From Thermoanaerobacter sp. A7A (GTDB taxonomy: Bacteria > Bacillota > Thermoanaerobacteria > Thermoanaerobacterales > Thermoanaerobacteraceae): a DNA stretch of 64,000 bases. The notes beneath the pieces are model-generated. The model was not told the origin of the DNA. It worked only from the letters and a program-made list of their open reading frames with translations, and made no database searches. Location of the stretch: contig NZ_AVAF01000122.1 of assembly GCF_000445185.1 (NCBI RefSeq), positions 62,001 to 126,000 of the forward strand. Reading direction: 5' to 3'. Shown in pieces: positions 2 to 17,613 of the stretch (positions are counted from its first letter, which is position 1; each line of letters begins with the position of its first letter). Position numbers and translations under genes: made by a program.

Positions 2-1069
2 ATTGCGAATGTAGAAAAGAAATTGTATGCGGTTCAATTCCATCCTGAAGTTTCACACACTCATAGAGGAACAGAGATTATAAGAAATTTCCTTTTTGAA
101 GTATGTGATTGCGCGGCAGATTGGACAATGGATTCTTTGATTGAGCAGACAGTAAAGGAAATAAAAGCGAAAGTAGGAAAACACAAAGCTGTATGTGCTC
201 TGTCTGGTGGTGTAGATTCTTCAGTGGCTGCTGTTTTAGTAGACAGAGCCATTCACGACCAATTGGTGTGCATTTTTGTTGATACAGGGCTTTTAAGGAA
301 AAACGAAGGAGATATGGTTATTGAAACTTTTAGAAAAAATTATGACATGAACATAATCCGGGTAGATGCAAAGGATAGATTTTTGTCACGACTTAAGGGA
401 GTTACGGATCCAGAAGAAAAGAGAAAAATTATTGGTAATGTTTTTATAGAAGTTTTTAAAGAAGAAGCTTTAAAGATAGGAGATGTGAAATTTTTGGTGC
501 AGGGTACTTTGTATCCTGATGTAATAGAAAGTGGCAATGGCGTGTCTTCTACTATTAAAAGTCACCACAATGTTGGAGGTTTGCCTGAAGATATAGGTTT
601 TGAACTTATTGAACCTTTGAGGATGCTTTTTAAAGACGAAGTAAGGCAAGTAGGAAAAGAATTGGGAATCCCCGAGGAAATATTGTATAGGCAACCTTTC
701 CCTGGACCAGGATTAGCAGTTCGAATCCTTGGTGAGGTTACAGAAGAGAAGTTGGAAATTTTGAGACAAGCTGACAGTATAGTTTTAAGAGAAATGAAAA
801 AGTTTGGCTGGTACAATAAAGTATGGCAATCTTTCGCGATTTTGCCTGGTATAAAAAGTGTTGGAGTTATGGGAGATGAGAGAACTTACGCCTATGCCAT
901 AATTTTGAGGGTAGTAGATAGCTACGACGGAATGACAGCAGATTGGACAAAGCTTCCTTATGAAATTTTAGAAAGTATATCTACTAGTATTACTAATGAA
1001 GTTCCGGGAATAAATCGAGTACTTTACGACATTACTTCTAAACCGCCTGCTACTATAGAGTGGGAATAG
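2..1069 (+). CDS. guaA: GMP synthase (glutamine-hydrolysing), C-terminal part; gene begins before the window
   Basis: Frame open from base 2; [11 protein letters not shown]-loop, [12 protein letters not shown] and C-terminal PPATIEWE. Confidence 0.97.
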
Positions 1070-1079
1070 ACGTTAAAAT

Positions 1080-1126
1080 GCCTCTGAACCCAGTAAAATA
1101 AAGGGTTTCAGAGGCTTAATTTTTGC
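1080..1126 (+). terminator. Rho-independent terminator after guaA
   Basis: GCCTCTGAACCC ... GGGTTTCAGAGGC stem followed by TTAATTTTT. Confidence 0.75.
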
Positions 1127-1148
1127 TCGTGGTAGCAGTTTGGAAGCA

Positions 1149-2258
1149 TTATTCTAAAATACCCGGATTTTTATCTGATTTTTGGCAAATATTAGGAGAA
1201 AATAACTCGTTCAGTTTACTGGAAACTTCCCCGTGCTTATTGGGGTATAAGTGGGCATATATTTCCAGAGTGGTCTCCACATTTTCATGGCCAAGACGCT
1301 CTGATATCAGCAGCGGGGAAAAACCAAGTTCAATCAATAACGATGCGTGGGAATGACGGATGTCATGAACACGTATCTTTTTTACCCCTGATTTCTTGCA
1401 ACCGCGGTCCATTTCACTTTGAAGGTAGTGCTTTGTATATTCAAAAAGGCGGTCCGAAGGCTCATAGTCCACCAGGCGGCCAGCGTAATCCTTCAGGATA
1501 TCCAGGAGGAAATCCGGTACAGTTATTACCCGGCGGCTCTTTGGAGTTTTTGGAGGAGAGATCACATCCTCTCCTCCGATCCTGGCGTAGCTCTTTGTTA
1601 TGCTTATCGTTTTAGCTTCAAAATTTACATCATTCAGAGTAAGGGCCAGGAGCTCTCCGGAGCGCATACCGGTCCAGAATAAGGTGTTAAAAATAGCATA
1701 CGATGCAGGCTTATCTGAAACAGCTTCAACAAAAAGCTGAAATTCATCTTTTGTCCAGAACTGCATAGCCTCGGCGTTCTTTTTACCGATAGATCCAGCG
1801 ACAGCTGCAGGATTGGTACTCAGTCCATAATAGCGCTTGGCAAAATTGAAAATGGCCGAAAGCTGATTATTTATCGTCTTGAGGTATGTTGGAGAATACT
1901 CGGCGTCATCATCCAGGAGCTCATTCTGCCATTTGCGTACCGTAGCGGCTGTTATAGCATTTACAGGTAAATCTTTAAAAGTTGGAAGTATTTTAGACTC
2001 AATGAGGTACTTCTTACTTTCGTATGTCGTGGAGCGGAGCCGCGATTTACAATCTTCCATGTATAGCTCCACCATAGAACCGAAGCTCATGTCACAGCTG
2101 CCGCTTTGCTTTTTTAGAAAGTCTCGCTCGTACTGGACAGCTTCGGATCTCTTCTGAAAGCCTCTCTTTTTGTGCTGACGCACGACACCGGCCCAGTCTT
2201 TATAGCGGAACCAGACATACCACGTTTTTCTCTCTTCATCTTTGTAAACTGGCAACAA
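1149..2258 (-). CDS. Phage-type tyrosine recombinase/integrase
   Basis: TGMRSGELLAL, HDIRHSHASLLIELG, LGHENVETTLEIYAHLYP. Confidence 0.95.
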   Translation of the reverse strand: MLPVYKDEERKTWYVWFRYKDWAGVVRQHKKRGFQKRSEAVQYERDFLKKQSGSCDMSFGSMVELYMEDCKSRLRSTTYESKKYLIESKILPTFKDLPVNAITAATVRKWQNELLDDDAEYSPTYLKTINNQLSAIFNFAKRYYGLSTNPAAVAGSIGKKNAEAMQFWTKDEFQLFVEAVSDKPASYAIFNTLFWTGMRSGELLALTLNDVNFEAKTISITKSYARIGGEDVISPPKTPKSRRVITVPDFLLDILKDYAGRLVDYEPSDRLFEYTKHYLQSEMDRGCKKSGVKKIRVHDIRHSHASLLIELGFSPLLISERLGHENVETTLEIYAHLYPNKHGEVSSKLNELFSPNICQKSDKNPGILE

Positions 2259-2308
2259 ACCGCCTCCCTTCCTAAAAAGTCAGTAGCATATCATCAGGGC
2301 AAATCTTA

Positions 2309-2824
2309 TCAAGCCGATTGAGAGGGGGCCCCTTCAAATACTGTCCTATTCCTTAAAACATAGTCTCTCATCCACCAATCGAATGCGACCAAGAAAACAC
2401 CAATCACACCTCCCAGGACGAGGTTCACAATTGCAAAAGCAATTAACCAATTGCGCCGGCTGTCATACCAGGGCACGATCGCAGGATTGCCGGCGTATAT
2501 GCTCTTTACAGAGCGCAGCCTCATAATCGCATTAATGATATTCCATACACCGGCAGCTGCAGTCCACACAAGTACCAGTTGGACCACACCAATTATTAAC
2601 CAGAGGATGCCCGATACTGTTTCATACTTTTTGATACGATTGGCCACTTGGTCCGCAGCAGATGGAGCTGTAGCCTGTTTGAACTGTTTACGGGAAATTC
2701 CTGGAGGCTTTATCCGGAGCCGGGTACCGCAAGTAGGGCATTCGACAGTAAAACCGGAATCCGCTGTGGGTTCTTCTGTAACAAATTGATTGCCACATTT
2801 GCAGTTAACATTTATAGAAGCCAT
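2309..2824 (-). CDS. Membrane protein with N-terminal zinc-ribbon-like motif
   Basis: CKCGNQF...CPTCGTRL then hydrophobic helices; SD ggagg before ATG at 2824. Confidence 0.6.
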   Translation of the reverse strand: MASINVNCKCGNQFVTEEPTADSGFTVECPTCGTRLRIKPPGISRKQFKQATAPSAADQVANRIKKYETVSGILWLIIGVVQLVLVWTAAAGVWNIINAIMRLRSVKSIYAGNPAIVPWYDSRRNWLIAFAIVNLVLGGVIGVFLVAFDWWMRDYVLRNRTVFEGAPSQSA

Positions 2825-2891
2825 AACTTCTCCTCCCTTCATAAAATCCCAGCCGCTTAAGGCCGGGACTATTTTTAATTGGATTTATATA

Positions 2892-3464
2892 TTAATCTCT
2901 CTTGTCATGCTCTGCCATGGAATTAATAAGCCGCTCCAATGCTTCGATTACTTTTGCTTGCTGCAGACGTGGAAGCAGTCTACTTATGATTTTTGCGATT
3001 TCCGGAGGAGTATAGGAGCTGCCGGCCTTGTTTATTTCCTGGTTTAGTTTATAGCTTATAATATCAACACTTTCCGAGCTTTCTCCATGTTTCACGGAAT
3101 ATATATAAGTCATTACTTCAAGCAGAAAGTTCTCGAAGTTTGGATCCGAGAGTAACAAGTCAAGGGTAGGCTGAAGCTCAGGCGGAACGGACTTCAAAAA
3201 AACGATTGCCTTATCAGATAATGGAAGTTCAAATGTATTTGCTATTGCCTGATTTTCTACTGAACGATAGTCCGATCTGCCCAGGAGATAGTCCGCTGTA
3301 ACACCAAAAAAATCTGCGGCTTTGATAATAAACGAAGCATCAGGCTGGCGCTCACCCCTTTCATAATATCCAAGAGCGGAGCGGGAAACATTCAAGCTTT
3401 TTGCAGCCATTTCTTGTGATATTCCCATTTCTTCACGAAGTTTTAGGAGCATTTTATCTATCAT
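2892..3464 (-). CDS. cI-like XRE-family repressor
   Basis: N-terminal HTH_3 (LREEMGISQEMAAKSLNVSRSALGYYERGERQPD); divergent from cro-like gene. Confidence 0.85.
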   Translation of the reverse strand: MIDKMLLKLREEMGISQEMAAKSLNVSRSALGYYERGERQPDASFIIKAADFFGVTADYLLGRSDYRSVENQAIANTFELPLSDKAIVFLKSVPPELQPTLDLLLSDPNFENFLLEVMTYIYSVKHGESSESVDIISYKLNQEINKAGSSYTPPEIAKIISRLLPRLQQAKVIEALERLINSMAEHDKRD

Positions 3465-3507
3465 TGATATCCTCCGTTCTGTGTGTAAACGTGACCTGAT
3501 GTGTTCA

Positions 3508-3536
3508 GTATAATACAACGTGACACTTTTGTCAAC
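3508..3536 (-). promoter_or_regulatory. Promoter of the cI-like repressor
   Basis: Minus strand TTGACA-N17-TATACT. Confidence 0.65.
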
Positions 3537-3620
3537 AAAATTCCATTGACTAAAGACGAGCAGTGTGATAATATGTGCTTATAAATGTGGCAATATTTAA
3601 GTAAAGGAGGCCAAAATGCC

Positions 3621-3839
3621 ATGATTGTGGCAAATACAAAATTATTAAAGACGGAGAGGGTAAAGCGCGGATTGAGTAAAACCGATCTGGCGAAAAAACT
3701 TGGAGTAAATCATTCTGTCATTGTTCGGGTAGAACAGGCAAAAGGTACAAGCCCGAGAACAGCTAAAGCAATATGCGATTTCTTTAACCTGCCATTTGAA
3801 GAGCTGTTCACTATTGTAGAGCAGTCAAGCGGGAGGTAG
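3621..3839 (+). CDS. Cro-like XRE-family regulator
   Basis: HTH: RGLSKTDLAKKLGVNHSVIVRVEQAKGTSPRTAKAICDFFN. Confidence 0.75.
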   Translation: MIVANTKLLKTERVKRGLSKTDLAKKLGVNHSVIVRVEQAKGTSPRTAKAICDFFNLPFEELFTIVEQSSGR

Positions 3840-3884
3840 GGAAATGGATAGCATATTAATAGCTCCAGGATTGGAGGTGCGAGC

Positions 3885-4922
3885 ATGGCCCGACCTCAAA
3901 AAGAAGGATTAGATTACTTCCCACTCGATGTGGATATGGATCAAGACGACAAAATAGCCCTTATTGAAGCAAGATACGGATTAATAGGCTTTGGAGTAGT
4001 GATCAGGCTGTTCATGAAAATTTATAAAAACAGTTATTTTTATGAATGGACAGAGAAAGAACAGTTACTATTTGCAAGGCGGGTTAATGTAGACATTAAT
4101 GTAATTAATGAAATCATAAACGATTGCTTAAAATGGGGCATCTTTGATAAATCCATATATGAAAAGCACAAGGTATTGACTTCGCGCGGTATCCAAAGGC
4201 GATATTTGAAGGCAGCAGATAGAAGACAAAGAGTTCAGATAAGCTCGGCATACTTGCTTTTAGATGATGAGGAAGTTAATGCATTCAAAAACTTAGTTAT
4301 TGTCAACAATAACCCCCATTCAAGCGGTAATAATGCTGACATTAATCCCCAAAGCAAAGAAAAGAACAGTAAAAAAGAAAGTAAAGAAGAGAAAACAGTA
4401 ATTACTTCGACTGATGCTGATAGTGGCCCAGAACAAAAAGATATTCGATCAGGCGAGAGCCTAACGGTTGAAGAGGTAAAAATGGCCGGAATGGCAGCAG
4501 GAAAAGAAACCTGCGAACAGCCCTCCAAGACCCTGGTTGAAAGAAGGTTTGACGAGTTCTGGGCGGCTTATCCAAAGAAGGTAGGCAAGAAAGCGGCCTG
4601 GGCGGCCTGGAAAAAGGTAAAGCCGGATGCGGAACTGTTTGACAAAATCATGACGGCCATAAGTAAAGCTAAAGCAACGGAGCAATGGCAAAGGGAAAAC
4701 GGCAGATTTATTCCGAACCCAACAACCTGGCTGAACCAGGGACGATGGGATGATGAATACGAGGAGGGACCGATAAATGGAGTCAATAGCAAGCATTTTG
4801 ACGGGTATAACCAGCAACCAGCGGTCAGCCCGCCGGGAAACGAAGGTAAGAGGGATGCCCTTGCAGGTTTCAAGAGAGCCGAAGTTCTTGATTTATATTC
4901 ACGATCAATAAAGGGGAAATAA
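3885..4922 (+). CDS. Phage replication protein with Lin1244/Lin1753-like (DUF4373-type) N-terminus
   Basis: YFPLDVDMDQDDKIALIEARYGLIGFGVVIRLFMKIY; C-terminal FDEFWAAYPKKVGKKAAWAAWKKV. Confidence 0.75.
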   Translation: MARPQKEGLDYFPLDVDMDQDDKIALIEARYGLIGFGVVIRLFMKIYKNSYFYEWTEKEQLLFARRVNVDINVINEIINDCLKWGIFDKSIYEKHKVLTSRGIQRRYLKAADRRQRVQISSAYLLLDDEEVNAFKNLVIVNNNPHSSGNNADINPQSKEKNSKKESKEEKTVITSTDADSGPEQKDIRSGESLTVEEVKMAGMAAGKETCEQPSKTLVERRFDEFWAAYPKKVGKKAAWAAWKKVKPDAELFDKIMTAISKAKATEQWQRENGRFIPNPTTWLNQGRWDDEYEEGPINGVNSKHFDGYNQQPAVSPPGNEGKRDALAGFKRAEVLDLYSRSIKGK

Positions 4923-5042
4923 GACTATGGTTGCTAACAAGCAAAAATAAAAACGAGAGCATTTAAAACAGCTCCCGCTCCGTTTTAGCCCAATATCCAC
5001 AATCTTTTTTAATATTCTATCACGGAGAGGGGGTTATTACAA

Positions 5043-5726
5043 GTGACAAATGAGGAGTTGGCAACCATGGCCGCGCATGGAGATATTGAAAGCTTGAATA
5101 AATTATATTTGGCGGTAAGACCTCTACTCTACAAGCTAATAGAACACTACTTCCCCCTATGTAAAAAAAGTTTAGTGGAACCAGATGATTTGCTGCAGTG
5201 CGGCTATTTTGTTGTTTTAGAAGCGGTGAAATATTTTACACCTGAAAAAGGCCTAAAATTTACCTCATATTTGGGATATTGCGTGCAAAAGGTTTGTCTT
5301 GAGGAGTTAGGGTTCAGAAAAAAACACGTAGAAACTATTTCACTTGAGACACCATTGTCAGATGATGAATCGTTTACTTTGGGCGATACGATAGAGGATC
5401 CTACTGCAGATACATACAGCTATTGCGAGCTAAATGATATGCAAATAATAGTCCGACAAGAAATAGAAAGGCTTCCTCCCCGTGAGCAATGTGTGATATA
5501 TGGCATTTTCTATTATGAAAAGACAATAGAGGCACTCGCCCAGGAGTTAGGATGGGAACGCGGATCAGTTATTTCAGCGAGAGATGCTGCTTTTAACCAA
5601 TTACGACGCTCAAAGGCTATAAGAGAATTAAGAAAGGCCTATAACTGGAACAATAAACAGCCAAGCTACCTTGATCCGGAAAAATTAATCGTTCTATTGG
5701 GGGATAGCGGGCTTGAACCCATATAA
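5043..5726 (+). CDS. Phage-encoded sigma-70-family factor
   Basis: Region 2-like DDLLQCGYFVVLEAVKYFTPEKGLKFTSYLGYCV; region 4-like IERLPPREQCVIYGIFYYEKTIEALAQELG. Confidence 0.75.
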   Translation: MTNEELATMAAHGDIESLNKLYLAVRPLLYKLIEHYFPLCKKSLVEPDDLLQCGYFVVLEAVKYFTPEKGLKFTSYLGYCVQKVCLEELGFRKKHVETISLETPLSDDESFTLGDTIEDPTADTYSYCELNDMQIIVRQEIERLPPREQCVIYGIFYYEKTIEALAQELGWERGSVISARDAAFNQLRRSKAIRELRKAYNWNNKQPSYLDPEKLIVLLGDSGLEPI

Positions 5727-5743
5727 GAAAAGGAGGGGGAATT

Positions 5744-6187
5744 ATGGAGGTTAGTATCACAAAATTCATTGAGCTGGAAGATTGCTCAAAAATGACTATA
5801 AAGAAGCGTTATGAAACTGTCAGGCGAGCTTTGAATCGATTTAAATATAAAAAGTCAAGCCCCGAAGAGAGAAAAATCCTTGTGGAGGCAATGCAGAAAT
5901 ATAAGAGCTTGGCCATAAGAGAAGAAAAGGCCAGAATTTACAATGTGTTGTTATATTACTATTTTTCAAGCCGCCCTTTGACAGATAAACAATTGATGAA
6001 ATTATTTAACATTGACCGAAGGACCGTATATAAGGACATAGACAGAGGCGTAAAGGACCTGACGGTTATTTTATATGGTATCGGTGGGATTGAGTTGCTT
6101 CCGGAAGAGGAAAGTCCGGATTTTATAAAAGCTAAACTCCAGGAGGCAATAACAAAAAAACTAACTGAAGAATTTGGGAGGAGGTGA
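5744..6187 (+). CDS. Phage HTH regulatory protein
   Basis: SRPLTDKQLMKLFNIDRRTVYKDIDRGVKDL helix-turn-helix. Confidence 0.5.
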   Translation: MEVSITKFIELEDCSKMTIKKRYETVRRALNRFKYKKSSPEERKILVEAMQKYKSLAIREEKARIYNVLLYYYFSSRPLTDKQLMKLFNIDRRTVYKDIDRGVKDLTVILYGIGGIELLPEEESPDFIKAKLQEAITKKLTEEFGRR

Positions 6188-6192
6188 GAGTG

Positions 6193-6492
6193 ATGTTCCC
6201 TACTGCAGAGTTTAGAAATGAGGAAAGAGCCAAGTACATCGAAAAGCTAAAACAGCGCCAGGAGCTCAAACGGCAGCAAGAGGAGAGGGAAGCTGCAGCG
6301 AGGAAGGCTGCTGAAAAGACGCCATATGAAAAAAGCTTGGACAAGCTAAAAGAAGCCAAAGAGTTCATTAACAGCATTCAGATAGGCAGCCCAATGAACG
6401 AAGGATATATAGCCGCTGCACTAAAGCAAATATGCGACATTTTGGACTTTTGCTTGAATGAAATCAAGCCAGAAAACAGCTCGGAGGAATAG
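6193..6492 (+). CDS. Hypothetical phage protein, charged coiled coil
   Basis: ORF with strong SD ggaggtga; no recognised domain. Confidence 0.5.
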   Translation: MFPTAEFRNEERAKYIEKLKQRQELKRQQEEREAAARKAAEKTPYEKSLDKLKEAKEFINSIQIGSPMNEGYIAAALKQICDILDFCLNEIKPENSSEE

Positions 6493-6655: not shown

Positions 6656-9600
6656 ATGGCTGAACCTTTTCGAATTGAGATACCAATAAGCATCAAGGAT
6701 AACACAGATCCCGGAGTGTCCCAGGCTAAAAATAAGCTGAATGCCTTTGATAAAGCAAGTCAAAGGACCCAGGAACGGCTGGAACAGATGAATAAAACCC
6801 GATACCAGATCATCCTTGAGGCTTTAGATAGAGCTTCAAGTATAGTCGGTACTGTTTCATCTAAAGCTCGCAGCATAGCGGGTAAGACGTTTAGCTTCAC
6901 GATGAAAGTAATCGACCTGGCCACGGCACCGTTAAGGGCCCTATGGAACTTCGCGACGTCCATACAAGGCGCCATACTCGGTGCGACCGGTGCATTTGCC
7001 GGCATTTATAAACCGATGGAAATCGCCGGCGATTTCGAGCAGACACAGATCGCATTTGAAACCATGCTAAAAAGCGCCGAGAAGGCAGAAAAATTCCTGA
7101 AGGAAGCGTCACAGTTCGCGAACAAAACACCGTTCGAATTTCCGGAACTGATCAACAGTAGTAAGCTGCTGATGGCCTTCGGTTTTGAAGCAGACAAAGT
7201 GCTCGATATGTTAAAGACCATAGGCGACACGGCCAGCGGCCTGGGAGCCGGTTCTGAAGGAATAGACCGTATAACGAGAGCACTCGGCCAGATGAGAGCG
7301 AAAGGACGAGCACAGGCAGAGGAACTCCTGCAGCTTCAGGAGCTTGGTGTACCAGCCAACCAAATACTGCAAGAAGAGCTCGGCCTAACCGGAGAACAGA
7401 TCGCAAACATCGGTAAAGAGAGTATAGAGGCCTCGAAGGTAATAGACGCATTGCTGCGAGGCATGGAAAAGCGCTTCGGCGGCATGATGGACAATCAATC
7501 CAGGACGGCCAAAGGCATGATTTCAACCCTGAAAGACACGCTTCAAAACTCCCTGTTAAGACAATGGGGAGAAGGCCTATGGGCAGGAATTAAACCAGGA
7601 CTTGAAAAACTCACCACCTGGATAGACGAGAACCAGGATATCATCGCTCAATGGGGAGAGGCCTGGAAGAAAGCCGGAGCAAATATTTCCAAGTGGGTAA
7701 TGGCCAGAGTGGACGATTTAAGAAACAGCATACAACGCATGGTTAACTCCCAGGAATGGAAGGACGCGAAAAACTTCGGAGAAAAGCTGAAGATAGCCTG
7801 GGACAAGATCATAGCGCAGCCGTTCAACGAATGGTGGAATTCAACCGGCAAGGCCTGGCTTGCAGACAAAGCCAGCAAAATCGGTGAAGGAATAGGAACT
7901 GCGCTCTCCGCAGGATTGCTGGCCATACTCGGAATAGACGCAAAAGGTGCCGTAGAGGAAGGAACCAGCATAGGAGCTTCATTCGCTGAAGGTTTCCAAA
8001 AAGGATTTGATGGCGAGAAGGTAGGCGAGGCGATCTTAAACGCCATAAAAGGTGTATTCAAGGACGCAGGAACGCTGCTCCCAGGAGGAGAGAAACCAAC
8101 CAGTACATCCTGGCTGTCTGCCGGCGCAATAGCATTGGCGCTTCAAAAGCTTGGAATTTTCAAGCTGTTAGGCAAAGGCGGCAAGGGTTTAATTAATCTC
8201 CTTGGGAAAGGGAGCAAGGATGGAGTACCGGCAGCAACAGGATCTCTTGTCCCTGACAGTTTCATAACTTCCACTATGGCCGTTACGGCCTCTGTAGTTT
8301 ACATCAATGGCCCAACGATTGGAGGAGGCGGAAGCGGGGGCAAAATCATAAACAACATTCCAAGCTTACCTGGAGGAGGACCTGCGACAATACCAAAGCT
8401 TCCTGGAGGAGGATCGCCTCTTGCTTTACCGGGCGCCGCCGGAGCGGCAGGAAAGGCAATAAATACTGTGAAGCTTGCTAATGGCACATATGTAGCGTCA
8501 GGAGGTGCGTTAACAACAGGCCTGGCCAAGTTAGGAGTAGCACTCGGCAGCGGTGCAACAACTGCTAGCGGAGCTGCAGCGGTCGGAGGTGCCTCGATTG
8601 CTGGAATTATCGGCGGCATTCTTGGACTTGGATCAGCTGGTATTGATGTTTACCAGGGAATAAAAGCGAGCAAGGCCGGCAATAGCAAAGCTGCTAAAGA
8701 TGAATATGTAACAGCAGGGACCAAGGCTGGCATGGTCGGCGCGGGAGCTGCTGCAGGCGCTGCCATTGGCGCTTTATTTGGAGGCATAGGTGCGGTACCA
8801 GGAGCGCTTATAGGAGCGGGAATCGGTGGAGCTGCCGCACTTTTCACCGGAGATAAAGCAGGAAAAGCCCTATCGGACGCGACAGACAAAGACGGAGCTC
8901 TGACAAAGTTCTGGGAAAACACCAAGCAATGGGCAAGTAACACATGGGACTCCATCAAAACCGGAGCTTCAAACGCCGGATCCTGGGTGGCCGAGAAGTG
9001 GAACGCAGCAGGAGACTGGATAAGCAACAAATGGAGTAGCTTCAGCGACTGGTTCGACACTTCGGTATGGACCCCGGTAAAAGACGCGGCACAAGCTGCA
9101 GGTGAATGGGTAAGCCAGAGATGGGATGAAGCCAGGACGTGGATCGGAGACAGATGGTCTGATTTTTCTTCCTGGTTTGACGAATCCATATGGACCCCAG
9201 TAAGCAATGCAGCGCAGGCAGCCGGCCAATGGGTAAGTGACCGCTGGAACGAGGCAAGGACATGGATAGGCGAACGCTGGTCCGACTTTTCAACATGGTT
9301 TGAAGAGAGCATATGGACCCCGGTCAAAACAGGAGCCCAGGCGGCAGGTCAGTGGGTAAGCGAAAGATGGAGCGAGGCCAAGGCCTGGGTAAGCGAGACA
9401 TGGGGAACTGTAAGCACCTGGTTTGATGAAACGGTATGGCAGCCGGTAAAAAGCGCAGCACTGACAGCCGGAGCATGGCTGGGAGATCAGTTCACAGCGG
9501 CAAAGAACGCCATAAGCGAGGCCTGGTCCGGAGTATCCGACTGGTTCTCAAATAACGTATGGGAGCCCATCAAGAACGGAGCAACCAAAGCATGGGAATG

Positions 9601-10132
9601 GGTAGGCGAGAAGCTCGGCGGCATTGGCGAATGGATCGGAGACCTGGGCCAAAAAGGCTCAAAGGAAACCGGCCTGACAACCAGCAAGGGCAAAGGCAGT
9701 ATCCTCGAACATGCATACGGCGGAATTATGACAAAACCGCACATGGGCATCGTGGCCGAGGACGGAGCCGAAAGCCTTATCCCGTTAAGCCCAAGCAAGA
9801 GACAAAGAGGCCTTGATTTATGGCAGCGGACCGGTGAACTTCTCGGAGTCAGGGCCTACGAAGACGGCGGAATAGTAGGCGAGGAACCGGAGGAAATCCC
9901 AGTGGCGTCCGCAACCGGAAAAGCCGGCCAGAACATCACCATCAAGGTGGAAGTCAAGGCAGAGCCTAAATTCACGATTGAAGGCTCCGGAGACGCCACC
10001 GATGAAAACAAGGTACTGGCTGTCCTGAAGGCCTACATCCGCGAAATGACCGACGACATAGGAGACGAGCTGGCAGAGAGACTGGCTCGCATATTCGCTA
10101 ATATGCCGGTGAAAGGAGGAGCTGAAGCTTGA
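6656..10132 (+). CDS. Phage tail tape measure protein
   Basis: Tape-measure domain (FEQTQIAFETMLKSAEKAEKFLKEASQFANKTPFEFPELINSSKLLMAFGF), Gly/Ala hydrophobic stretches, Trp-rich C-terminal repeats. Confidence 0.9.
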   Translation: MAEPFRIEIPISIKDNTDPGVSQAKNKLNAFDKASQRTQERLEQMNKTRYQIILEALDRASSIVGTVSSKARSIAGKTFSFTMKVIDLATAPLRALWNFATSIQGAILGATGAFAGIYKPMEIAGDFEQTQIAFETMLKSAEKAEKFLKEASQFANKTPFEFPELINSSKLLMAFGFEADKVLDMLKTIGDTASGLGAGSEGIDRITRALGQMRAKGRAQAEELLQLQELGVPANQILQEELGLTGEQIANIGKESIEASKVIDALLRGMEKRFGGMMDNQSRTAKGMISTLKDTLQNSLLRQWGEGLWAGIKPGLEKLTTWIDENQDIIAQWGEAWKKAGANISKWVMARVDDLRNSIQRMVNSQEWKDAKNFGEKLKIAWDKIIAQPFNEWWNSTGKAWLADKASKIGEGIGTALSAGLLAILGIDAKGAVEEGTSIGASFAEGFQKGFDGEKVGEAILNAIKGVFKDAGTLLPGGEKPTSTSWLSAGAIALALQKLGIFKLLGKGGKGLINLLGKGSKDGVPAATGSLVPDSFITSTMAVTASVVYINGPTIGGGGSGGKIINNIPSLPGGGPATIPKLPGGGSPLALPGAAGAAGKAINTVKLANGTYVASGGALTTGLAKLGVALGSGATTASGAAAVGGASIAGIIGGILGLGSAGIDVYQGIKASKAGNSKAAKDEYVTAGTKAGMVGAGAAAGAAIGALFGGIGAVPGALIGAGIGGAAALFTGDKAGKALSDATDKDGALTKFWENTKQWASNTWDSIKTGASNAGSWVAEKWNAAGDWISNKWSSFSDWFDTSVWTPVKDAAQAAGEWVSQRWDEARTWIGDRWSDFSSWFDESIWTPVSNAAQAAGQWVSDRWNEARTWIGERWSDFSTWFEESIWTPVKTGAQAAGQWVSERWSEAKAWVSETWGTVSTWFDETVWQPVKSAALTAGAWLGDQFTAAKNAISEAWSGVSDWFSNNVWEPIKNGATKAWEWVGEKLGGIGEWIGDLGQKGSKETGLTTSKGKGSILEHAYGGIMTKPHMGIVAEDGAESLIPLSPSKRQRGLDLWQRTGELLGVRAYEDGGIVGEEPEEIPVASATGKAGQNITIKVEVKAEPKFTIEGSGDATDENKVLAVLKAYIREMTDDIGDELAERLARIFANMPVKGGAEA
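9068..9562 (+). repeat. In-frame 123-bp (41-aa) tandem repeat in the tape-measure gene
   Basis: WTPV/WQPV/WEPI codons start at 9068, 9191, 9314, 9437 and 9560, exactly 123 bp apart. Confidence 0.9.
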
Positions 10133-10611
10133 AAATCGATTTAGAGGGTACTGTTAATGAAATAGTGGAGGAAATAACCTATCAGGCTAAATCAAGGGCA
10201 TTCCGTGCAGCCAACGAGCTCAGGAATTCAGCATTGACTGTCCTCCGGGGAGAGCGCTCTGGAAAGGTTTATAAAAAGCCTGGCACATACGGAAGCAGAA
10301 TGACAAAGCAAACGAAGAATTTGCTTAAAGATTATGGCCATAAATTGCGAGGTGGACAATTATACAGAGCTTCAGCACCAGGGGAACCGCCTGCGAACCG
10401 TAGCGGGAACCTGCGCTTAAGCTGGAGACCGCAAACCGCATCCGAGCGAATAGGCAAGACCGTAACAATAAAACCGGCAATTACTACCAATGTAAAGTAT
10501 GCTCCATATCTCGAAGAGGGAACCGATAGAATGGCTCCAAGACCATTTGAAGACCCTATTATCGAAAGAGCAATGCCTCGTATTCGCCGAATCTTCAAAG
10601 AGCCGTATTAG
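10129..10611 (+). CDS. HK97 gp10-like tail completion protein
   Basis: APGEPPANRSGNLRLSW...YAPYLEEGTDRMAPRPFEDPIIERAMPRIRRIF; overlaps tape-measure stop. Confidence 0.75.
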   Translation: MKIDLEGTVNEIVEEITYQAKSRAFRAANELRNSALTVLRGERSGKVYKKPGTYGSRMTKQTKNLLKDYGHKLRGGQLYRASAPGEPPANRSGNLRLSWRPQTASERIGKTVTIKPAITTNVKYAPYLEEGTDRMAPRPFEDPIIERAMPRIRRIFKEPY

Positions 10612-10629
10612 GTTTAACCTTAAAAGTAA

Positions 10630-10660
10630 AAGGGCGGAATAAAATCCGCTCTTTTGCTTT
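10630..10660 (+). terminator. Terminator after the gp10-like gene
   Basis: GGGCGGA ataaaa TCCGCTCTTTT. Confidence 0.6.
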
Positions 10661-10837
10661 ACTTGTTTGGACGGACATGTCCATATCGAAAATGCAGGCG
10701 AGAAAAGGCCAGATTTGACTTGTACGGAACGAATTTAAAGCGGGTAAGGTAAATACCCGTCTTGGCGTTAAAATTCAAAATAAAGGGAAAATACGCGCTT
10801 AAAATGCTTTTGATTATTCATGGTAGTTAAAGAGCAA

Positions 10838-10863
10838 TAAAAAAGCCCTGTTTTTCAGGGCTG
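10838..10863 (-). terminator. Terminator of the minus-strand secreted-protein operon
   Basis: Minus strand AGCCCTGaaaaaCAGGGCTTTTTT. Confidence 0.75.
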
Positions 10864-10890
10864 TGCTGTGAATATTTAAAAAGATAGTTT

Positions 10891-11406
10891 TTATACATCG
10901 ATGAGCTCGATCTTGAAATAAACCGTACCTATGTACGTACCGTATGATGTAGAACTAGTAATTTGGGGCTTGAATTTCAGCGCGCCATATGCCTTCGGAT
11001 TTGTGCTGCCATCAGCAAATGTTGCAACTACTTCACTCAAACCAGTTATATCCTCAAAAGAGCTACTGGTAGGCAATCCACGCAGAATTCTGCAAGATAT
11101 TCTTTGTTCGTTTGCAGTCCCTTTATCTTTGTATAAATAAAAATTGCCACCGTTTTCGTATGTAGCTGCACCATCAATCGTAATCTTAACATTTTTACCG
11201 CTTCCTATGTCCATTTTATTAGCCGAGAATGTGAATCCCTCGCTATCATTGATAGATATAGAGGCAGGGATATTGATTGTATACTCGGGCGAATAGGTGT
11301 ACGATATCGTTGTATTTGCAGATGTCTGGTTTGCAAAAGCATCCATTGGCGATATACTGCAAACCAGTATGGCTGCAAGCAGAAAAGAGAATATTCTTTT
11401 TATCAT
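10891..11406 (-). CDS. Secreted protein with signal peptide (beta-rich, surface/WxL-like)
   Basis: MIKRIFSFLLAAILVCSISPMDAFA signal; TYSPEYTINIPASISI start of mature region. Confidence 0.55.
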   Translation of the reverse strand: MIKRIFSFLLAAILVCSISPMDAFANQTSANTTISYTYSPEYTINIPASISINDSEGFTFSANKMDIGSGKNVKITIDGAATYENGGNFYLYKDKGTANEQRISCRILRGLPTSSSFEDITGLSEVVATFADGSTNPKAYGALKFKPQITSSTSYGTYIGTVYFKIELIDV

Positions 11407-11855
11407 GGCTTAACCTCCAATTTAAAAATAGTTTTGGCACCGTTCAATTCTTTGATTTCTTTCATGCCATAGCATGAATAACTTAAGATGGCACCTTCGT
11501 ACATTCCGGGTTTAAGCTCTTGAGAGAGCTCAATAGAGTTAAGGACTTGCCCGGGCGCAAGCAAACCGGACTCATAAAGCTGCGTTCCATCGGGGAGCAT
11601 AATTGCAATTCTCATATAACAATTATTTTGTTTTGGGTTACCGAGCTCGATATTTTGAACCTTTTGACCTGCTTTCATAACTATATGATCATATCCCGGG
11701 ATTGCTATCATACCGGAGGCACCGCTGTTATTCGATGATATGTCGACATCGGAGAGTGTCTGCACAGAGTCATCGGGTTTGGACTTGAGCGCATCATTGA
11801 AATTGTAACCGATTGCTGCAGCTACAAACAAAGCTAAAGTTATACCGATTGACAT
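11403..11855 (-). CDS. Membrane-anchored extracytoplasmic protein, coupled to the downstream secreted protein
   Basis: N-terminal TM helix; 4-nt overlap with the next gene; likely true start upstream at ATT 11885. Confidence 0.55.
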   Translation of the reverse strand: MSIGITLALFVAAAIGYNFNDALKSKPDDSVQTLSDVDISSNNSGASGMIAIPGYDHIVMKAGQKVQNIELGNPKQNNCYMRIAIMLPDGTQLYESGLLAPGQVLNSIELSQELKPGMYEGAILSYSCYGMKEIKELNGAKTIFKLEVKP

Positions 11856-11943
11856 AGTTATCTTTTTTACGTTTCTGTTTTCAATGATTTATCACTCCTT
11901 TCAGCTGGCTTGTCTACAAAAATACTACAGAAGCTCCAGATTA

Positions 11944-12309
11944 TTAAGGCAAACTGGGTGGGTATTTTCCTTTTTTCCATCTTCGGATCGTCGAATCATC
12001 TGCCGGGCATGAATCCGATCGGCCAGCCATAACATCTTTTATAAGACTGGCTTCATAATGCTTTTTAGGAGCCATAAAATCCGGAAGCTCAAGATGCAGT
12101 TTTACGCAGCTTGGACACTTTAGCCGGCGCAACCGGTACCAGCAGATCTGGCCGGAGCTATCAACGACATGGCGAGCTCTTGTATCATATCCGGAGAGCA
12201 GCTGGCCGCAGTCAGGGCAAAATGGAGCATCTTTATTCCGGATCTTATAAACCTTGCGAGTCTCGTCATATTCTACGGTGTAATTAATAGCAATGATCAG
12301 GATAACCAC
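11944..12309 (-). CDS. DUF6431-like zinc-binding protein
   Basis: CPDCGQLLSGYDTRARHVVDSSGQICWYRLRRLKCPSC. Confidence 0.55.
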   Translation of the reverse strand: MVILIIAINYTVEYDETRKVYKIRNKDAPFCPDCGQLLSGYDTRARHVVDSSGQICWYRLRRLKCPSCVKLHLELPDFMAPKKHYEASLIKDVMAGRSDSCPADDSTIRRWKKGKYPPSLP

Positions 12310-12445
12310 CTCCTCGTCCGCTGAACGTTAATAAATACGCCAACGTATTTGGAGCTGGTCCTGAATGTTACCCACCTGGTATGCCTTAACCATGGGAGCT
12401 GATTGCATTAACATGAATTCAAACTAAAGCAAGGGGAGAAAACCC

Positions 12446-12715
12446 ATGGAATATGGAACGATACTCGCAACCAGAGGTGTAGCTGATAAAATGAAGGAAA
12501 ACCCGGCATTTGCTCAAGAAGTCATGGCAGCCTTTAACCGGTACCGGAAAAATGACTGGGGAGACCTTTGCCAAGAGGATAAAGATCTGAATGATCTGGC
12601 AGCCAGGACAGGCGAGCGAATACTGGCCGCATATGAGACCAGCAAGGGAAAGATCTGGATTATTACCGAATGGGATAGATCTGCGACAACAATCCTCTTC
12701 CCAAGTGAATATTAG
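12446..12715 (+). CDS. Conserved small hypothetical protein
   Basis: SD plus ATG; soluble 89-aa ORF with terminator downstream. Confidence 0.5.
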   Translation: MEYGTILATRGVADKMKENPAFAQEVMAAFNRYRKNDWGDLCQEDKDLNDLAARTGERILAAYETSKGKIWIITEWDRSATTILFPSEY

Positions 12716-12775
12716 TGGCCATAGCTCTTCCATGTCATACAATAGAACAAAGGCATCAAAGCTACACCAGAAACA

Positions 12776-12824
12776 CAAAGAGAGCCTCCAGGACTTTATC
12801 CCGGTAGAGGCTCTCTTTTTTATA
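12776..12824. terminator. Hairpin terminator
   Basis: AGAGAGCCTC ... GAGGCTCTCTTTTTT. Confidence 0.75.
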
Positions 12825-12905
12825 TAAACGCGGAATGGCTTAAGTATTACCACTGGGTATATTTTGAGCGGAATCTTAACGGACAAATACCGCTCTTATT
12901 TTATT

Positions 12906-13655
12906 TTAGGGCAGATGAGGAAAAGGAATATTCAATAACCTCATAATTTCCTTTTCAGACTCAAGAACGCGTTCGGCAATAAAGTCCATAAAAGGTTGAT
13001 CATCTTCATGAGCCCGCTCCAGTAAGCTAATATACTCATGTCGCAAGACCGGTGGAATTATGGCCAGCATATAACCATCTTGAATAAGCGCTGTATTCAT
13101 AAGCAACCGGGCAACTCTCCCGTTTCCATCTATGAAAGGATGAATAAATACAAACCGCTTATGCAGCTGGGCGGCAAATTGGACCGGATGGTATTTGTTA
13201 CGCGCGGAGCATGCCCACTGAAATAAGTTTTTCATTTCCTCTTCTATCCGTTCTACTGGGCATACTTCATATTTTGAACCGGTTATAAAGACCGGGCGAT
13301 CGCGGTATTTTCCCGCTTCCTCGGCATCAATACCTGTATAGAACATTCGGTGCATTGTAAGGGCGTCTTCTTCTGTTATTTGGTAACTATTAAGCAATGT
13401 AAACATGAAATCATAAGCCTTTGCATGTCCCAGGGCTTCGAAGATATCTCGAAGAGGCTTCCCTCCGACAGTCAACCCATCTTCCAGGAGGATTTTTGTT
13501 TCACTTAAAGTGAGAGTGTTTCCTTCAAGAGCATTGCTGGACCATGTAAGGCCTATGCGGTAGTAGTTTTTAATTTCATGAAGCAAATGACCTTCAAAGG
13601 GACGCTTTTCATCAATGGCCAGCTTGTAGCGGTCGATTTTTTCATATAAAGTCAT
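12906..13655 (-). CDS. Fic/DOC-family protein (predicted AMP-transferase)
   Basis: HPFIDGNGRVARLLMN Fic motif; N-terminal SNALEGN fits the [S/T]xxxE[G/N] inhibitory motif. Confidence 0.92.
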   Translation of the reverse strand: MTLYEKIDRYKLAIDEKRPFEGHLLHEIKNYYRIGLTWSSNALEGNTLTLSETKILLEDGLTVGGKPLRDIFEALGHAKAYDFMFTLLNSYQITEEDALTMHRMFYTGIDAEEAGKYRDRPVFITGSKYEVCPVERIEEEMKNLFQWACSARNKYHPVQFAAQLHKRFVFIHPFIDGNGRVARLLMNTALIQDGYMLAIIPPVLRHEYISLLERAHEDDQPFMDFIAERVLESEKEIMRLLNIPFPHLP

Positions 13656-13849
13656 TGATTAACACCGTCCTCCGAAATTACTTTCCGTGTGGTAATAATG
13701 CCGCTTGTTACTTCGCTGCCATTTTCAGCACCACACCAGGGACAATTTATGCTTTCTCGTTCTTTCCCGCCGGGATATCCTGCATTTGATATGGTTACAG
13801 AGAAGCGTTTACCACAGGCTATGCACTTGCATATATCATTATTGGACAA
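13652..13849 (-). CDS. Small zinc-ribbon protein
   Basis: CKCIACGKRF...INCPWCGAENG; 4-nt overlap with the Fic gene. Confidence 0.6.
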   Translation of the reverse strand: MSNNDICKCIACGKRFSVTISNAGYPGGKERESINCPWCGAENGSEVTSGIITTRKVISEDGVNQ

Positions 13850-13867
13850 TTTGACAACCTCCTTTTT

Positions 13868-14083
13868 TTAGTATGTGACCTTCTCGCCAGATGGCAGTAT
13901 AAAAGAGCCCTCGTATTTACATCCGGCAGCTTCGGCAATTTTCTTTAATTCATCTACAGTGAAACTTTCCCGCTTCATTTTCTGGCTGAAGGCTTGCGGA
14001 CTTTTTCCGGATATTCTTCCAAGCTCGGAGACACTTATTCCAAGCTTTACACATAGAATTTTCAGCTGTTCAGACACTGACAT
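13868..14083 (-). CDS. XRE-family small HTH regulator
   Basis: LCVKLGISVSELGRISGKSPQAFSQKMKRESFTVDELKKIAEAAGC. Confidence 0.8.
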   Translation of the reverse strand: MSVSEQLKILCVKLGISVSELGRISGKSPQAFSQKMKRESFTVDELKKIAEAAGCKYEGSFILPSGEKVTY

Positions 14084-14177
14084 ACAACCACTCCTTTCGA
14101 TATTCTCATTATAAACGAATTTATTTAATAAATCAACGATAATATTTCTCTTTTATTGAGAAACGTTAAATTAGCCA

Positions 14178-14220
14178 TTGACACCATAAACAATATCGTT
14201 TATATTATAAACAGAAATAA
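14178..14220 (+). promoter_or_regulatory. Promoter with palindromic operator for the 14238 gene
   Basis: TTGACA-N17-TATATT overlapping ATAAACaatatcGTTTAT. Confidence 0.6.
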
Positions 14221-14237
14221 TTAAAGGGAGTGATTAC

Positions 14238-14513
14238 ATGAGTACAAACGAATTAGTAAGCAAAGTTAGAGAACTTAAGGAGCTTCAGGCAATGGCAGAA
14301 GAGCTTCAGGCAGAGATAAATAGTATTCAGGATGCAATTAAAGCTGAGATGAGCGCCAGAGGAGTTGATGAAATGGTTGTTGATGTTTTCAAGATCCGTT
14401 GGAAGGTTGTAAAAAGTAGCCGCTTTGATACAGCAGCATTTAAGGCTACACACGCCGAGCTATATAAGCAATACATGAAGGAAACGGAAACCCGCCGCTT
14501 CACGGTGGCATAA
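14238..14513 (+). CDS. Conserved phage hypothetical protein
   Basis: SD aaagggagtg; coiled-coil N-terminus. Confidence 0.55.
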   Translation: MSTNELVSKVRELKELQAMAEELQAEINSIQDAIKAEMSARGVDEMVVDVFKIRWKVVKSSRFDTAAFKATHAELYKQYMKETETRRFTVA

Positions 14514-14590
14514 GAAAAGCCCCTTACATCAGCACCCGACTAAAAGTTTGATGTAAAGAGCTTCGCACAGACCAACCGGAGCGGTCTTGT
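14513..14590 (-). ncRNA. Candidate small RNA, two hairpins with intrinsic terminator
   Basis: Minus strand TTGAAC-N17-TATAAT (plus 14597-14625) then ~78 nt ending in a 14-bp stem AGCTCTTTACATCA/TGATGTAAGGGGCT plus TTTTCTTA. Confidence 0.5.
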
Positions 14591-14843
14591 ACTAAGATTA
14601 TACCAGACCCGCTCCAATAGTTCAATTTATAACTAACATAAAGCCAGCACCGGAAGCCTACAGGCAAAAGAAAACTGGATCAGCAGAGACAACCCAACCA
14701 CAAACGGCACCTTAACAGGTGCCAAGCCCGCAAGCCTGCTGCCTCCACGCGGCGCGGGTGGATAACCAACCAAGAGCAGGCATAAGAAGCATACCTTAAG
14801 GGGACGACCCAACCACATAAATTGATATAGGAGGTAAAAAGAC

Positions 14844-15131
14844 ATGGCCAAAATAGTAAGTTTGCAATCAGCTATTACAAAGCAGCCAAAGGTAAGGTAC
14901 ATAATCACGATTGACGAGGACGAAACACCGGTATATGTAGCACGAGAACTTAAGTCAGGAGTAATCACCATCATGATCACAGCCAGGACACCGGAGGAAG
15001 CCGAGTCAATGAGAAAAGAAGCTGCAGCTATCGCAAAGCAGCAACATATGGACATTACACCGGCGCCTATTGGAAACCTAACAAAATCAAGGACTTTCAA
15101 AAAGCACCAGATTAGCCTCATGCAAGTATGA
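14844..15131 (+). CDS. Hypothetical phage protein
   Basis: SD aggaggt; compact 95-aa ORF. Confidence 0.5.
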   Translation: MAKIVSLQSAITKQPKVRYIITIDEDETPVYVARELKSGVITIMITARTPEEAESMRKEAAAIAKQQHMDITPAPIGNLTKSRTFKKHQISLMQV

Positions 15132-15152
15132 GAAAAGCACAGTACAAGCCGG

Positions 15153-15197
15153 GCCTATTACCTTTAACCTATTACCTTTTACCTTTTACCTATCACC
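15153..15197 (+). repeat. Heptanucleotide tandem array, unit ACCTWTT
   Basis: GCCTATT ACCTTTA ACCTATT ACCTTTT ACCTTTT ACCTATC ACC. Confidence 0.85.
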
Positions 15198-15230
15198 GAC
15201 TAATACCAGGAAGGGAGGAATAAACAGATG

Positions 15231-16178
15231 ATGAACAAATCAAAGATCGAGTGGTGTGGCTTCACCTGGAACCCGGTTACCGGTTGCCGGCACGGATGCT
15301 CATACTGCTACGCGGCGAAACAGGCAAAGCGCTTCTCCGGAGACGTGAGGATCAACAAAGGATCCAGCCAGCTCCGGAAGGATGAAAACGGACTTTATAT
15401 CCTGGATAACCCATTCAAAAACCAGACAGGCAAGGTTATACCGGACCCGGTAGGATTTGAACCGATTATGCACAAATACCGCCTGGCCATGCCGGCGCAA
15501 AAGAAGAAACCAGCGAACATTTTCGTTTGCAGCTTGGGGGATCTGTTCGGACCTTGGATACCGGATATTTGGATAGAGGAAGTATTCAGGGCCTGTGAAG
15601 CAGCGCCATGGCATAATTACCTTTTTATGACGAGATACCCGCAAAGATATGAACAGATGAGCTCCATAGGACTACTTCCACGCTCCGGAAACTTTTGGTA
15701 CGGGACGACCATCACCAGGAACACTGACCTTGATCGGATAGTATTTCTCCCCAGGAAGCAGCATAAACAATTCATCAATATAGAACCGCTCCTGGAGGAG
15801 ATAGACATAAGAGACACAGACTTCATGGACTGGATCATTATCGGAGCCGAGACCGGCAACAGGCGGGACAAAGTAAAACCGAAGCGGGAATGGATAGAGA
15901 CAATCGTCACTGCAGCCAGAGCTGCCGAAATTCCGGTCTTTATGAATAGCAGCAAAGAGCTGGAGAAAGTCTGGGGCAGGGATTTAATACAGGAGTTCCC
16001 TGCAGGACTGATACGGCCGGATGATAAACCAATCCCGCACTGCAAGAAGTGTGAGCACTGCAAAATAACCCCGGAAGGGAAGCGAGGGAGCCGTCACGAT
16101 TGCATGAAGGCAGGCAAGCACATACCAGGAAGGTATGCAAGGACCAGCCCGCCTTGGTGCCCGCTCCGGAACGAATAA
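15231..16178 (+). CDS. DUF5131 (phage Gp37/Gp68-like) protein with radical-SAM-like Cys motif
   Basis: KIEWCGFTWNPVTGCRHGCSYCYAAKQAKRF; second Cys cluster CKKCEHC near C-terminus. Confidence 0.85.
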   Translation: MNKSKIEWCGFTWNPVTGCRHGCSYCYAAKQAKRFSGDVRINKGSSQLRKDENGLYILDNPFKNQTGKVIPDPVGFEPIMHKYRLAMPAQKKKPANIFVCSLGDLFGPWIPDIWIEEVFRACEAAPWHNYLFMTRYPQRYEQMSSIGLLPRSGNFWYGTTITRNTDLDRIVFLPRKQHKQFINIEPLLEEIDIRDTDFMDWIIIGAETGNRRDKVKPKREWIETIVTAARAAEIPVFMNSSKELEKVWGRDLIQEFPAGLIRPDDKPIPHCKKCEHCKITPEGKRGSRHDCMKAGKHIPGRYARTSPPWCPLRNE

Positions 16179-16198
16179 TAAACGAGGAGGAATGAAGG

Positions 16199-16474
16199 AT
16201 GAAAAAGAACATTTATCAATTAGCCGCATTTTTACAGGATGAGAACAACACTGGAAGCATATCAGCTGCAGATCTGCAGGAAGACATCGAACTGCTCAAA
16301 GAGGAAATCATATCGTCATTGGCAGACAGAATAGGCAAAGCTGCAGCAGAGGATATGGTAAGTAACCTTACAACTTCTGTGTATGACCAGGGCTATATCG
16401 ATGGAATCAGAGCGGGCGCGCAGCTGATAAGACTAATTACTGGAGACGTCGATACCATCAAAATAACGGCTTAA
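16199..16474 (+). CDS. Hypothetical phage protein
   Basis: SD gaggaatga; 91-aa ORF. Confidence 0.45.
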   Translation: MKKNIYQLAAFLQDENNTGSISAADLQEDIELLKEEIISSLADRIGKAAAEDMVSNLTTSVYDQGYIDGIRAGAQLIRLITGDVDTIKITA

Positions 16475-16497
16475 TAATTGAAGAGGAGGCCAACGAG

Positions 16498-16878
16498 ATG
16501 AACAAAGCGTATATATCACAGGTTTTTCAAAGGCAGATGGAGCAAATGTGCAATATAAAGAACCTCATTTTTGACAATGATGCCATGGGAGAGCTCCCGC
16601 CATTAACCAGGTTATTATTTGCAGGCCTCTGGACCATGGTCGATGATAAGGGACGCATGGAGGACAATCCCAGGAAGATTAAGAAGGTTATAATGGGATA
16701 TGACGACGTGAGCGCCGGCCAGGTTGATGAAATGCTGCAGAGCCTGCACGATAGATGCTTTATCATGCGATACAGCGTAAACGGCAGCAATTACATTCAG
16801 GTAAATAACTTTAATAAATACAGGAACCCGCAGCTTTATAGAAGTTGCAGCCAAATACCAGCGCCAGAGCTTCAATAG
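16498..16878 (+). CDS. Replisome-organiser N-terminal-domain-like protein (short)
   Basis: LPPLTRLLFAGLWTMVDDKGRMEDNPRKIKKVIMGYDDVSAGQVDEMLQSLHDRCFIMRY. Confidence 0.6.
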   Translation: MNKAYISQVFQRQMEQMCNIKNLIFDNDAMGELPPLTRLLFAGLWTMVDDKGRMEDNPRKIKKVIMGYDDVSAGQVDEMLQSLHDRCFIMRYSVNGSNYIQVNNFNKYRNPQLYRSCSQIPAPELQ

Positions 16879-16923
16879 GTATTTTAATCAGGTTTATGAT
16901 GTAGTATAATAGCAAAATACAGG

Positions 16924-16978
16924 GCACTTAATGAGCACCGGAAAGGCACAATAAAAGCACAGTAATAGCACAGTGCCA
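16924..16978 (+). repeat. Iteron-like array, five GCAC-headed 11-bp units
   Basis: GCAC at 16924, 16935, 16946, 16957 and 16968, exact 11-bp period. Confidence 0.8.
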
Positions 16979-17025
16979 ATACGGTGCAAAGTGCTTATTT
17001 TCAGGAAAAGGAGGTAACAAAGATC

Positions 17026-17358
17026 ATGGATAGACAAGCCGTTTATATATACAAGCTTCCGGATGAGGAAAGCTTCACCGGCATAGCTCTTGATGTACAC
17101 ATGCACAAAGGGAACCTCCGCTATTTTGATACCAATAGAGGCCATGAGATCCCGGGAAAGATTATAGAGGAGACCGAGAAGGGATTTGCCTTCATATCTG
17201 AAGGATACATGCCGGGAGAATGGCAGTTCAAGGTATTAACTATTGAAGAGTTCAAGCGCAAATATTACAAGCTGGTCGAAGGAGGGCAGACGCTGGCGGC
17301 CAAGATAAATACCACAGAGGATCTTCACCAATGGTACCGGAGGGAGTTCATAATTTAA
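17026..17358 (+). CDS. Hypothetical phage protein
   Basis: SD aaaaggaggt before ATG at 17026. Confidence 0.5.
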   Translation: MDRQAVYIYKLPDEESFTGIALDVHMHKGNLRYFDTNRGHEIPGKIIEETEKGFAFISEGYMPGEWQFKVLTIEEFKRKYYKLVEGGQTLAAKINTTEDLHQWYRREFII

Positions 17359-17559
17359 ACTGTATTTAAGCATAAACCGTGGTAGCAAAATGGCAGCAAA
17401 AAATTTTTTAAACTATAAAAATGGCAATAATTTTGATAATATGAATAATAGAAATAGCAGAAAACAATAGGAATAACGACGAATAAAACTTTAACAATTG
17501 AATGGGAATAAAAATCCGAACATTAATTTAGTTTTTTATAAAAAAATTCGCAAATAAGG

Positions 17560-17588: not shown

Positions 17589-17613
17589 ATAAGTGTGACA
17601 ATTGAATAAAAAG

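Follow-up and report, generated by a model that had tools for sequence, protein, structure and literature searches.

A 16.4-kb element at the guaA 3' end of Thermoanaerobacter sp. A7A, best read as a phage satellite with its own tape-measure gene

The window, the whole stretch of DNA that was analysed, covers 64 kb of the 2.6-Mb genome of Thermoanaerobacter sp. A7A (genome G000, contig C122, positions 62001–126000), and its first letters fall within guaA. An integrated element of 23 genes, small genes included, lies between the guaA stop codon (position 1069) and the leader of pbuG. The element is 16,442 bp long between its hybrid attachment sites attL and attR, and it carries its own integrase, a CI/Cro-like switch and a replication module. 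Genes for a tape-measure protein (TMP), a gp10-family neck protein and a small protein, orf110, are homologous to three genes of a phage of about 56 kb. The features of the locus are as follows, in window positions.

23–1069, plus strand: 3' part of guaA, from the list of open reading frames (ORFs); its final codons (T-I-E-W-E-stop, 1052–1069) carry attL
1052–1069, plus: attL, hybrid core ACTATAGAGTGGGAATAG (pattern scan, empty-site comparison)
1080–1115, no strand: element-supplied hairpin directly 3' of the guaA stop; 12-nt arms, 92% complementary; fold -22.6 kcal/mol, z -4.8
1128–1148, plus: left putative integrase arm site CGTGGTAGCAGTTTGGAAGCA (motif common to both satellite ends)
1149–2258, minus: tyrosine integrase (Pfam Arm-DNA-bind_4, Phage_int_SAM_3, Phage_integrase), with relatives at guaA in many genomes
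2309–2842, minus: membrane or zinc-ribbon-like protein, function not assigned (no match in family searches; 92% identical in genome G022)
2892–3518, minus: CI-type repressor (family match; 366 bp 91% identical to the gene of phage H160)
3585–3839, plus: Cro-type regulator (family match)
3885–4922, plus: replication initiator (family match, Lin1244_N); its C-terminal part matches the phage initiator
5043–5726, plus: sigma-70-type factor (family match)
5744–6187, plus: helix-turn-helix (HTH) regulator (family match)
6184–6492, plus: orf102, kept across the element family (comparison with relatives)
6656–10132, plus: TMP, 1158 aa, homologue of the phage TMP; 9092–9930 letter-identical to a phage contig
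10129–10611, plus: gp10-family neck or tail-completion protein (PHROG phrog_5; weak TIGR01725), 46–58% identical to the phage protein
10891–11855, minus: two exported or membrane proteins of 171 and 150 aa, function not assigned (ORF list, G022 comparison)
11944–12309, minus: DUF6431 protein (family match)
12906–13655, minus: Fic-domain protein, cargo (family match; PADLOC PDC-S04/SoFic)
13868–14083, minus: second HTH regulator (family match; identical protein in G022)
15095–15202, plus: repeat cluster CCTATTACCTTTAACC..., mostly non-coding; also in the phage between terL and the portal gene and inside the phage rep gene
15228–16178, plus: DUF5131 protein (family match; phage homologue 61% identical in amino acids)
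16498–16878, plus: half-initiator, 58% identical in amino acids to the N-terminal portion of the initiator of the phage
17026–17358, plus: orf110, 72–74% identical to a phage gene adjoining the phage head genes
17378–17398, plus: right putative integrase arm site CGTGGTAGCAAAATGGCAGCA (motif common to both satellite ends)
17494–17511, plus: attR, hybrid core ACAATTGAATGGGAATAA (pattern scan, empty-site comparison, same right end in relatives)

The guaA gene ends in ACTATAGAGTGGGAATAG, and the right copy, ACAATTGAATGGGAATAA, also reads T-I-E-W-E-stop; it follows the ORF that ends at 17358 and precedes pbuG (17883). A degenerate pattern covering every coding of these residues (ACNATHGARTGGGARTRR) has two matches in the 64 kb, namely both copies, and none in 100 shuffles. 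A looser 15-base core pattern has a single extra match in the whole genome, which was rejected as another attachment site, being a chance match in the dnaG coding sequence. The leader sequence after 17511 was compared with 41 genomes, and in seven genomes of the same genus (G001, G003, G004, G006, G007, G008 and G009) the intact guaA stop runs directly into it. In G001 the DNA downstream of guaA is 99% identical to the post-17511 sequence of the window, and the empty site reads ...ACCATAGAATGGGAATAAaaatccgaacattaatttag, compared with ACAATTGAATGGGAATAAaaatccgaacattaatttag in the window right copy. A preliminary description of this DNA had taken the two copies as attL and attR of a 16,442-bp element and had proposed this very comparison with relatives lacking the island. 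The empty sites confirm that proposal, with the refinement that the copies are hybrids. Its placement of the integrase just inside the left copy also holds, as does that of the right copy outside any gene and before the promoter and riboswitch of the purine operon; both of the latter lie intact to the right of attR.

The same element, with the same right end apart from the wobble base (gaataaaactttaacaATTGARTGGGAATAA), is found at guaA in G022, a genome from a different family within the order. Right ends read aactttaacaAT[T/C]GA[A/G]TGGGA in the window, G022, G013, L165, L167 and L169, and left ends of this element type read ...GA[A/G]TGGGAATAGacgtta or a near variant. The strand-exchange (overlap) region probably includes the wobble base of the Glu codon in GARTGGG, because GAA and GAG vary on both sides: GAA is present at the right end in the window and at the left end in G022, and GAG at the opposite ends. 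Later point mutation is the alternative. This placement fits the published 8-bp core of GIsul2, 5'-GAGTGGGA-3' (PMC9376610). A putative arm-type site, CGTGGTAGCAnnnTGGnAGCA, occurs at each end of the element (1128–1148 and 17378–17398) and recurs at both ends in satellite relatives, while the two ends of the larger phage carry another motif, CGTACCnAAAnCGTACC.

The search with the TMP also returned contigs of 50–76 kb encoding sheath, major head protein, baseplate J, Mu-type portal and the terminase subunits TerS and TerL. These represent a contractile-tailed, temperate phage of about 56 kb, whose TMP is approximately 74–85% identical to that of the window and which also possesses homologues of gp10 and orf110. 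At the DNA level, the window matches the phage in the CI gene (366 bp, 91%), the initiator gene (86%), the DUF5131 gene (79%) and the repeat cluster at 15095–15202. The phage terL belongs to phrog_38; the terminase family phrog_2 gave no match in the phage contigs, and a search of two satellite contigs for the phage terL gave none either. Contig H160 (3300021045_000005) opens inside guaA and contains the phage; it closes with an IEWE core followed immediately by the left end of a satellite (131 bp, 91% identical to the window and 98% to L170). Because H160 reads guaA, phage, satellite left end, the larger phage evidently also integrates at guaA, in tandem with a satellite. The integrase of this phage is 44% identical to that of the window. 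An internal phage attachment site without guaA was found in H161 only. Three metagenomes (3300034520, 3300034759 and 3300010011) contain contigs of both phage and satellite. Contig 3300034520_000204 contains two different satellites in tandem; its interpretation as a circular read-through was rejected, since its two TMP genes show 110 differences over 3384 bases.

The TMP gene also links the two kinds of elements. Window positions 9092–9930 (839 bp) are letter-identical to phage contig L166, and L190 is likewise identical over 788 bp of this block, whereas outside the block the gene is 59–95% alike to that of the phage. In a TMP tree, satellites and phages are interleaved, and phage H160 pairs with the satellite of G022 with support of 100/100. 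The satellite TMP is of full length (1158 aa versus 1150–1195 aa in the phages). At the level of sequence comparison, such an identical block in an otherwise divergent gene demonstrates that phage and satellite exchange DNA by recombination; therefore both elements, or near relatives of them, were recently present in one cell.

In G022 all 23 genes (23/23) are colinear with those of the window, with amino acid identities of 65–100%. The ratios of non-synonymous to synonymous substitution rates (dN/dS) between the two copies are 0.03 for the integrase, 0.10 for TMP, 0.05 for gp10, 0.07 for orf110 and 0.04 for the Fic protein, and range from about 0 to at most about 0.5 over all genes. Because of this colinearity and low dN/dS, the element is evidently a unit under purifying selection rather than debris or a relic. 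At least 10 near-relatives are present among viral contigs, the near-copies being 16–18 kb long. Further relatives are more distant (G123), about 18.7 kb long (G149) or decayed (G013, 7.5 kb). The element of G123 spans 34.5 kb and was rejected as a larger phage, since its extra length is accounted for by about 16 kb near the right end, where transposases, a group II intron-type protein and further genes are located.

The preliminary description left the kind of element unnamed. We consider it best read as a phage satellite with its own tape-measure gene and its own versions of three phage genes, with most likely chimeric tails or necks, and give this reading a probability of about three in four. 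It follows from the element's own integration, repression and replication functions, from the lack of terminase, portal and capsid genes among its proteins scanned in family searches, from its versions of phage genes, from the attachment site shared with the phage and from the DNA exchange between them. The element's own capsid or packaging genes, the hallmark of capsid-forming phage-inducible chromosomal islands (cf-PICIs), were likewise missing among the scanned proteins. With 16,442 bp, the element falls in the size range of satellites (10–20 kb), and its structural and packaging set is incomplete. A related element, L026, encodes a TerS 59% identical to that of the phage, an argument for redirected packaging across the broader family.

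The insertion of 16,442 bp arose when the integrase recombined the element attP with the 3' end of guaA. According to the proposed mechanism, the element integrates, represses and replicates itself, while heads and packaging would be provided by the temperate contractile-tailed phage of about 56 kb that uses the same guaA site and would mobilise it. Its own versions of the tape measure, neck protein and orf110, which are kept by purifying selection, would enter satellite particles otherwise built of helper proteins. The tails or necks of these particles would probably be chimeric, as in the PICI-like elements (PLEs) of Vibrio.

Several observations weigh against this interpretation. A search of 20 genomes, among them the carriers, did not find the phage sheath gene, and 37 genomes of the class yielded no terL close to that of the phage. 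Helper and satellite share one chromosome in the H160 contig only, and no terS was recognised in the window copy. The chimeric tails are proposed by analogy, and mobilisation, excision and packaging are presumed from the sequence.

The element could also be a satellite whose TMP, gp10 and orf110 stay out of its own particles and instead act against the phage, by poisoning the assembly of the helper or competing with it. A tail-targeting satellite protein is known, Rta of PLE11 (PMC12987554), and the Fic and DUF5131 proteins match candidate defence families. The full-length TMP, of phage size and under purifying selection, is rather what is expected of a working structural protein, and we regard the anti-phage role as unlikely. 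Improbable, too, is a cryptic prophage formed by an old internal deletion of the guaA phage, in which head, packaging and lysis genes were lost and TMP and gp10 are left-overs. The common attachment site, several genes in common and the existence of decayed copies (7.5 kb in G013) are consistent with such an origin. However, the gene order differs from that of the phage, with TMP and gp10 reversed and the initiator split, and the integrase is just 44% identical to its phage counterpart. In addition, the 23 genes are colinear in another family with low dN/dS, at least 10 close copies contain the same gene set without head genes, and the TMP has been refreshed from the phage. Transfer by conjugation or passively, as an integrative mobilisable element or ordinary island, is suggested by the use of guaA by GIsul2, Tn5801-like islands and some integrative and conjugative elements (ICEs; PMC9376610, PMC4844618, PMC4701971), but is made very improbable by the phage-like gene content and by the lack of a relaxase or type IV coupling protein among the proteins scanned. 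That the TIEWE copies are coincidental and the true boundary lies elsewhere can be dismissed: the copies agree letter for letter over a short stretch only (TGGGAATA), but the shuffles gave 0 chance matches, the empty sites of relatives already refute it, and the same right end recurs in G022, G013, L165, L167 and L169.

The insertion also bears on the host gene guaA. Insertion at guaA is in itself ordinary; the preliminary description had called the guaA 3' end a known integration target, and the published elements cited above agree. The hairpin at 1080–1115 was found by folding, having been overlooked by a consensus terminator scan (loop > 8), and the empty site lacks a hairpin of this kind after guaA. 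A hairpin-like sequence is also present 3' of guaA in other clostridial elements. The hairpin of the window is likely a two-way terminator for guaA and int. Because attP re-supplies the last GuaA codons together with this presumed terminator, and the pbuG promoter and riboswitch are undamaged, the GuaA protein is retained, and guaA has likely acquired a terminator by which it is uncoupled from pbuG.

To the right of attR lie a purine riboswitch (17597–17698) and then a ykkC-class aptamer. The latter follows directly (17597–17783 for both) and is assigned by Rfam to guanidine-I, barely over the cut-off. The pair before pbuG is most likely a tandem guanine–phosphoribosyl pyrophosphate (PRPP) riboswitch, a type described earlier (eLife 2018; PMC5912903). 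In G002 (locus L003), a sugar-phosphorylase-like gene, not guaA, precedes the pbuG leader and the core sequence is damaged, while a second leader copy is located elsewhere, after a guaA-type end, which suggests that this region was rearranged or duplicated. Other guaA elements have left remnants, with a Phd-type antitoxin and a toxin-like gene beside the same core, at L009 (G005) and to the right of the satellite in G022. Elements with an integrase of the same family are located at guaA ends in Actinobacteria too (L062–L099), with conserved sequence after the guaA stop.

Several further features were observed inside the element. The Fic and DUF5131 proteins match the PADLOC candidate defence families PDC-S04 and PDC-M41B, respectively, and near copies of the Fic gene occur in a sister genus as well, in four of its genomes (G013, G014, G017 and G018). 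Over much of its length, the non-coding region 10611–10891 shows 93–100% conservation among satellites, and it was not found in the phage contigs; it opens with a terminator-like hairpin, and the remainder may serve in packaging or replication or act as an RNA element. Short repeats at 15154–15197 (CCTATTACCTTTAA), shared with the phage at two sites (inside the replication gene and between terL and portal), are a candidate origin or packaging site. Internal repeats of 123 bp in the TMP gene (9066–9383) are a likely place for recombination and tail-length change. An Rfam scan of the element produced a sub-threshold chance microRNA as the sole match.

The system offers an apparently PLE-unrelated case in which the TMPs of satellite and phage are similar enough for recombination, with a temperate phage and a single shared attachment site. 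Exchange of near-identical TMP genes would make it possible to test for what purpose a satellite requires a tape measure of its own. More tentatively, and at somewhat less than even odds, the element may represent a satellite family of Gram-positive thermophiles that forms chimeric tails and necks and continually copies its TMP and neck genes from a temperate helper sharing guaA, with tandem stacks that could excise as one unit.

Among known systems, the guaA islands (GIsul2 and Tn5801-like; PMC9376610, PMC4844618) resemble the element in site-specific integration at the guaA 3' end within the GuaA E-W codons, but carry resistance or conjugative modules, whereas the element carries phage regulation, replication and tail genes. 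SaPI-like PICIs share with it an integrase, divergent CI/Cro-like regulators, own replication, a size of about 16 kb and the lack of a full structural set. They differ in that the window copy, unlike its relative L026, lacks a recognised terS, and that TMP, a neck gene and orf110 stand in place of the known capsid-size genes. Tandem satellites, and satellites that adjoin a helper prophage, are known (PMC10111431), but helper-embedded PICIs interrupt a helper late gene, while here phage and satellite lie end to end at one attachment site. Likened by description, AH14b of Pseudomonas is a 16.8-kb satellite beside the 55-kb phage AH14a (PMC4936722), compared with 16.4 and about 56 kb here; its homologue of a helper tail gene is tail assembly protein I rather than TMP. 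TMP genes are predicted in cf-PICIs, and in Vibrio PLEs the satellite TMP is used for chimeric tails (PMC12987554). The PLEs, satellites of phage ICP1, are alike in combining a satellite-encoded TMP with a contractile-tailed phage, the helper and the dependence on it being deduced for the element described here. This likeness is drawn from the published description and concerns the TMP feature. The PLE TMP is about 20% identical to that of its helper, compared with about 70–95% between element and phage, and the PLE helper is lytic and has no common chromosomal site, whereas the phage described here is temperate and shares the guaA site with its putative satellite.

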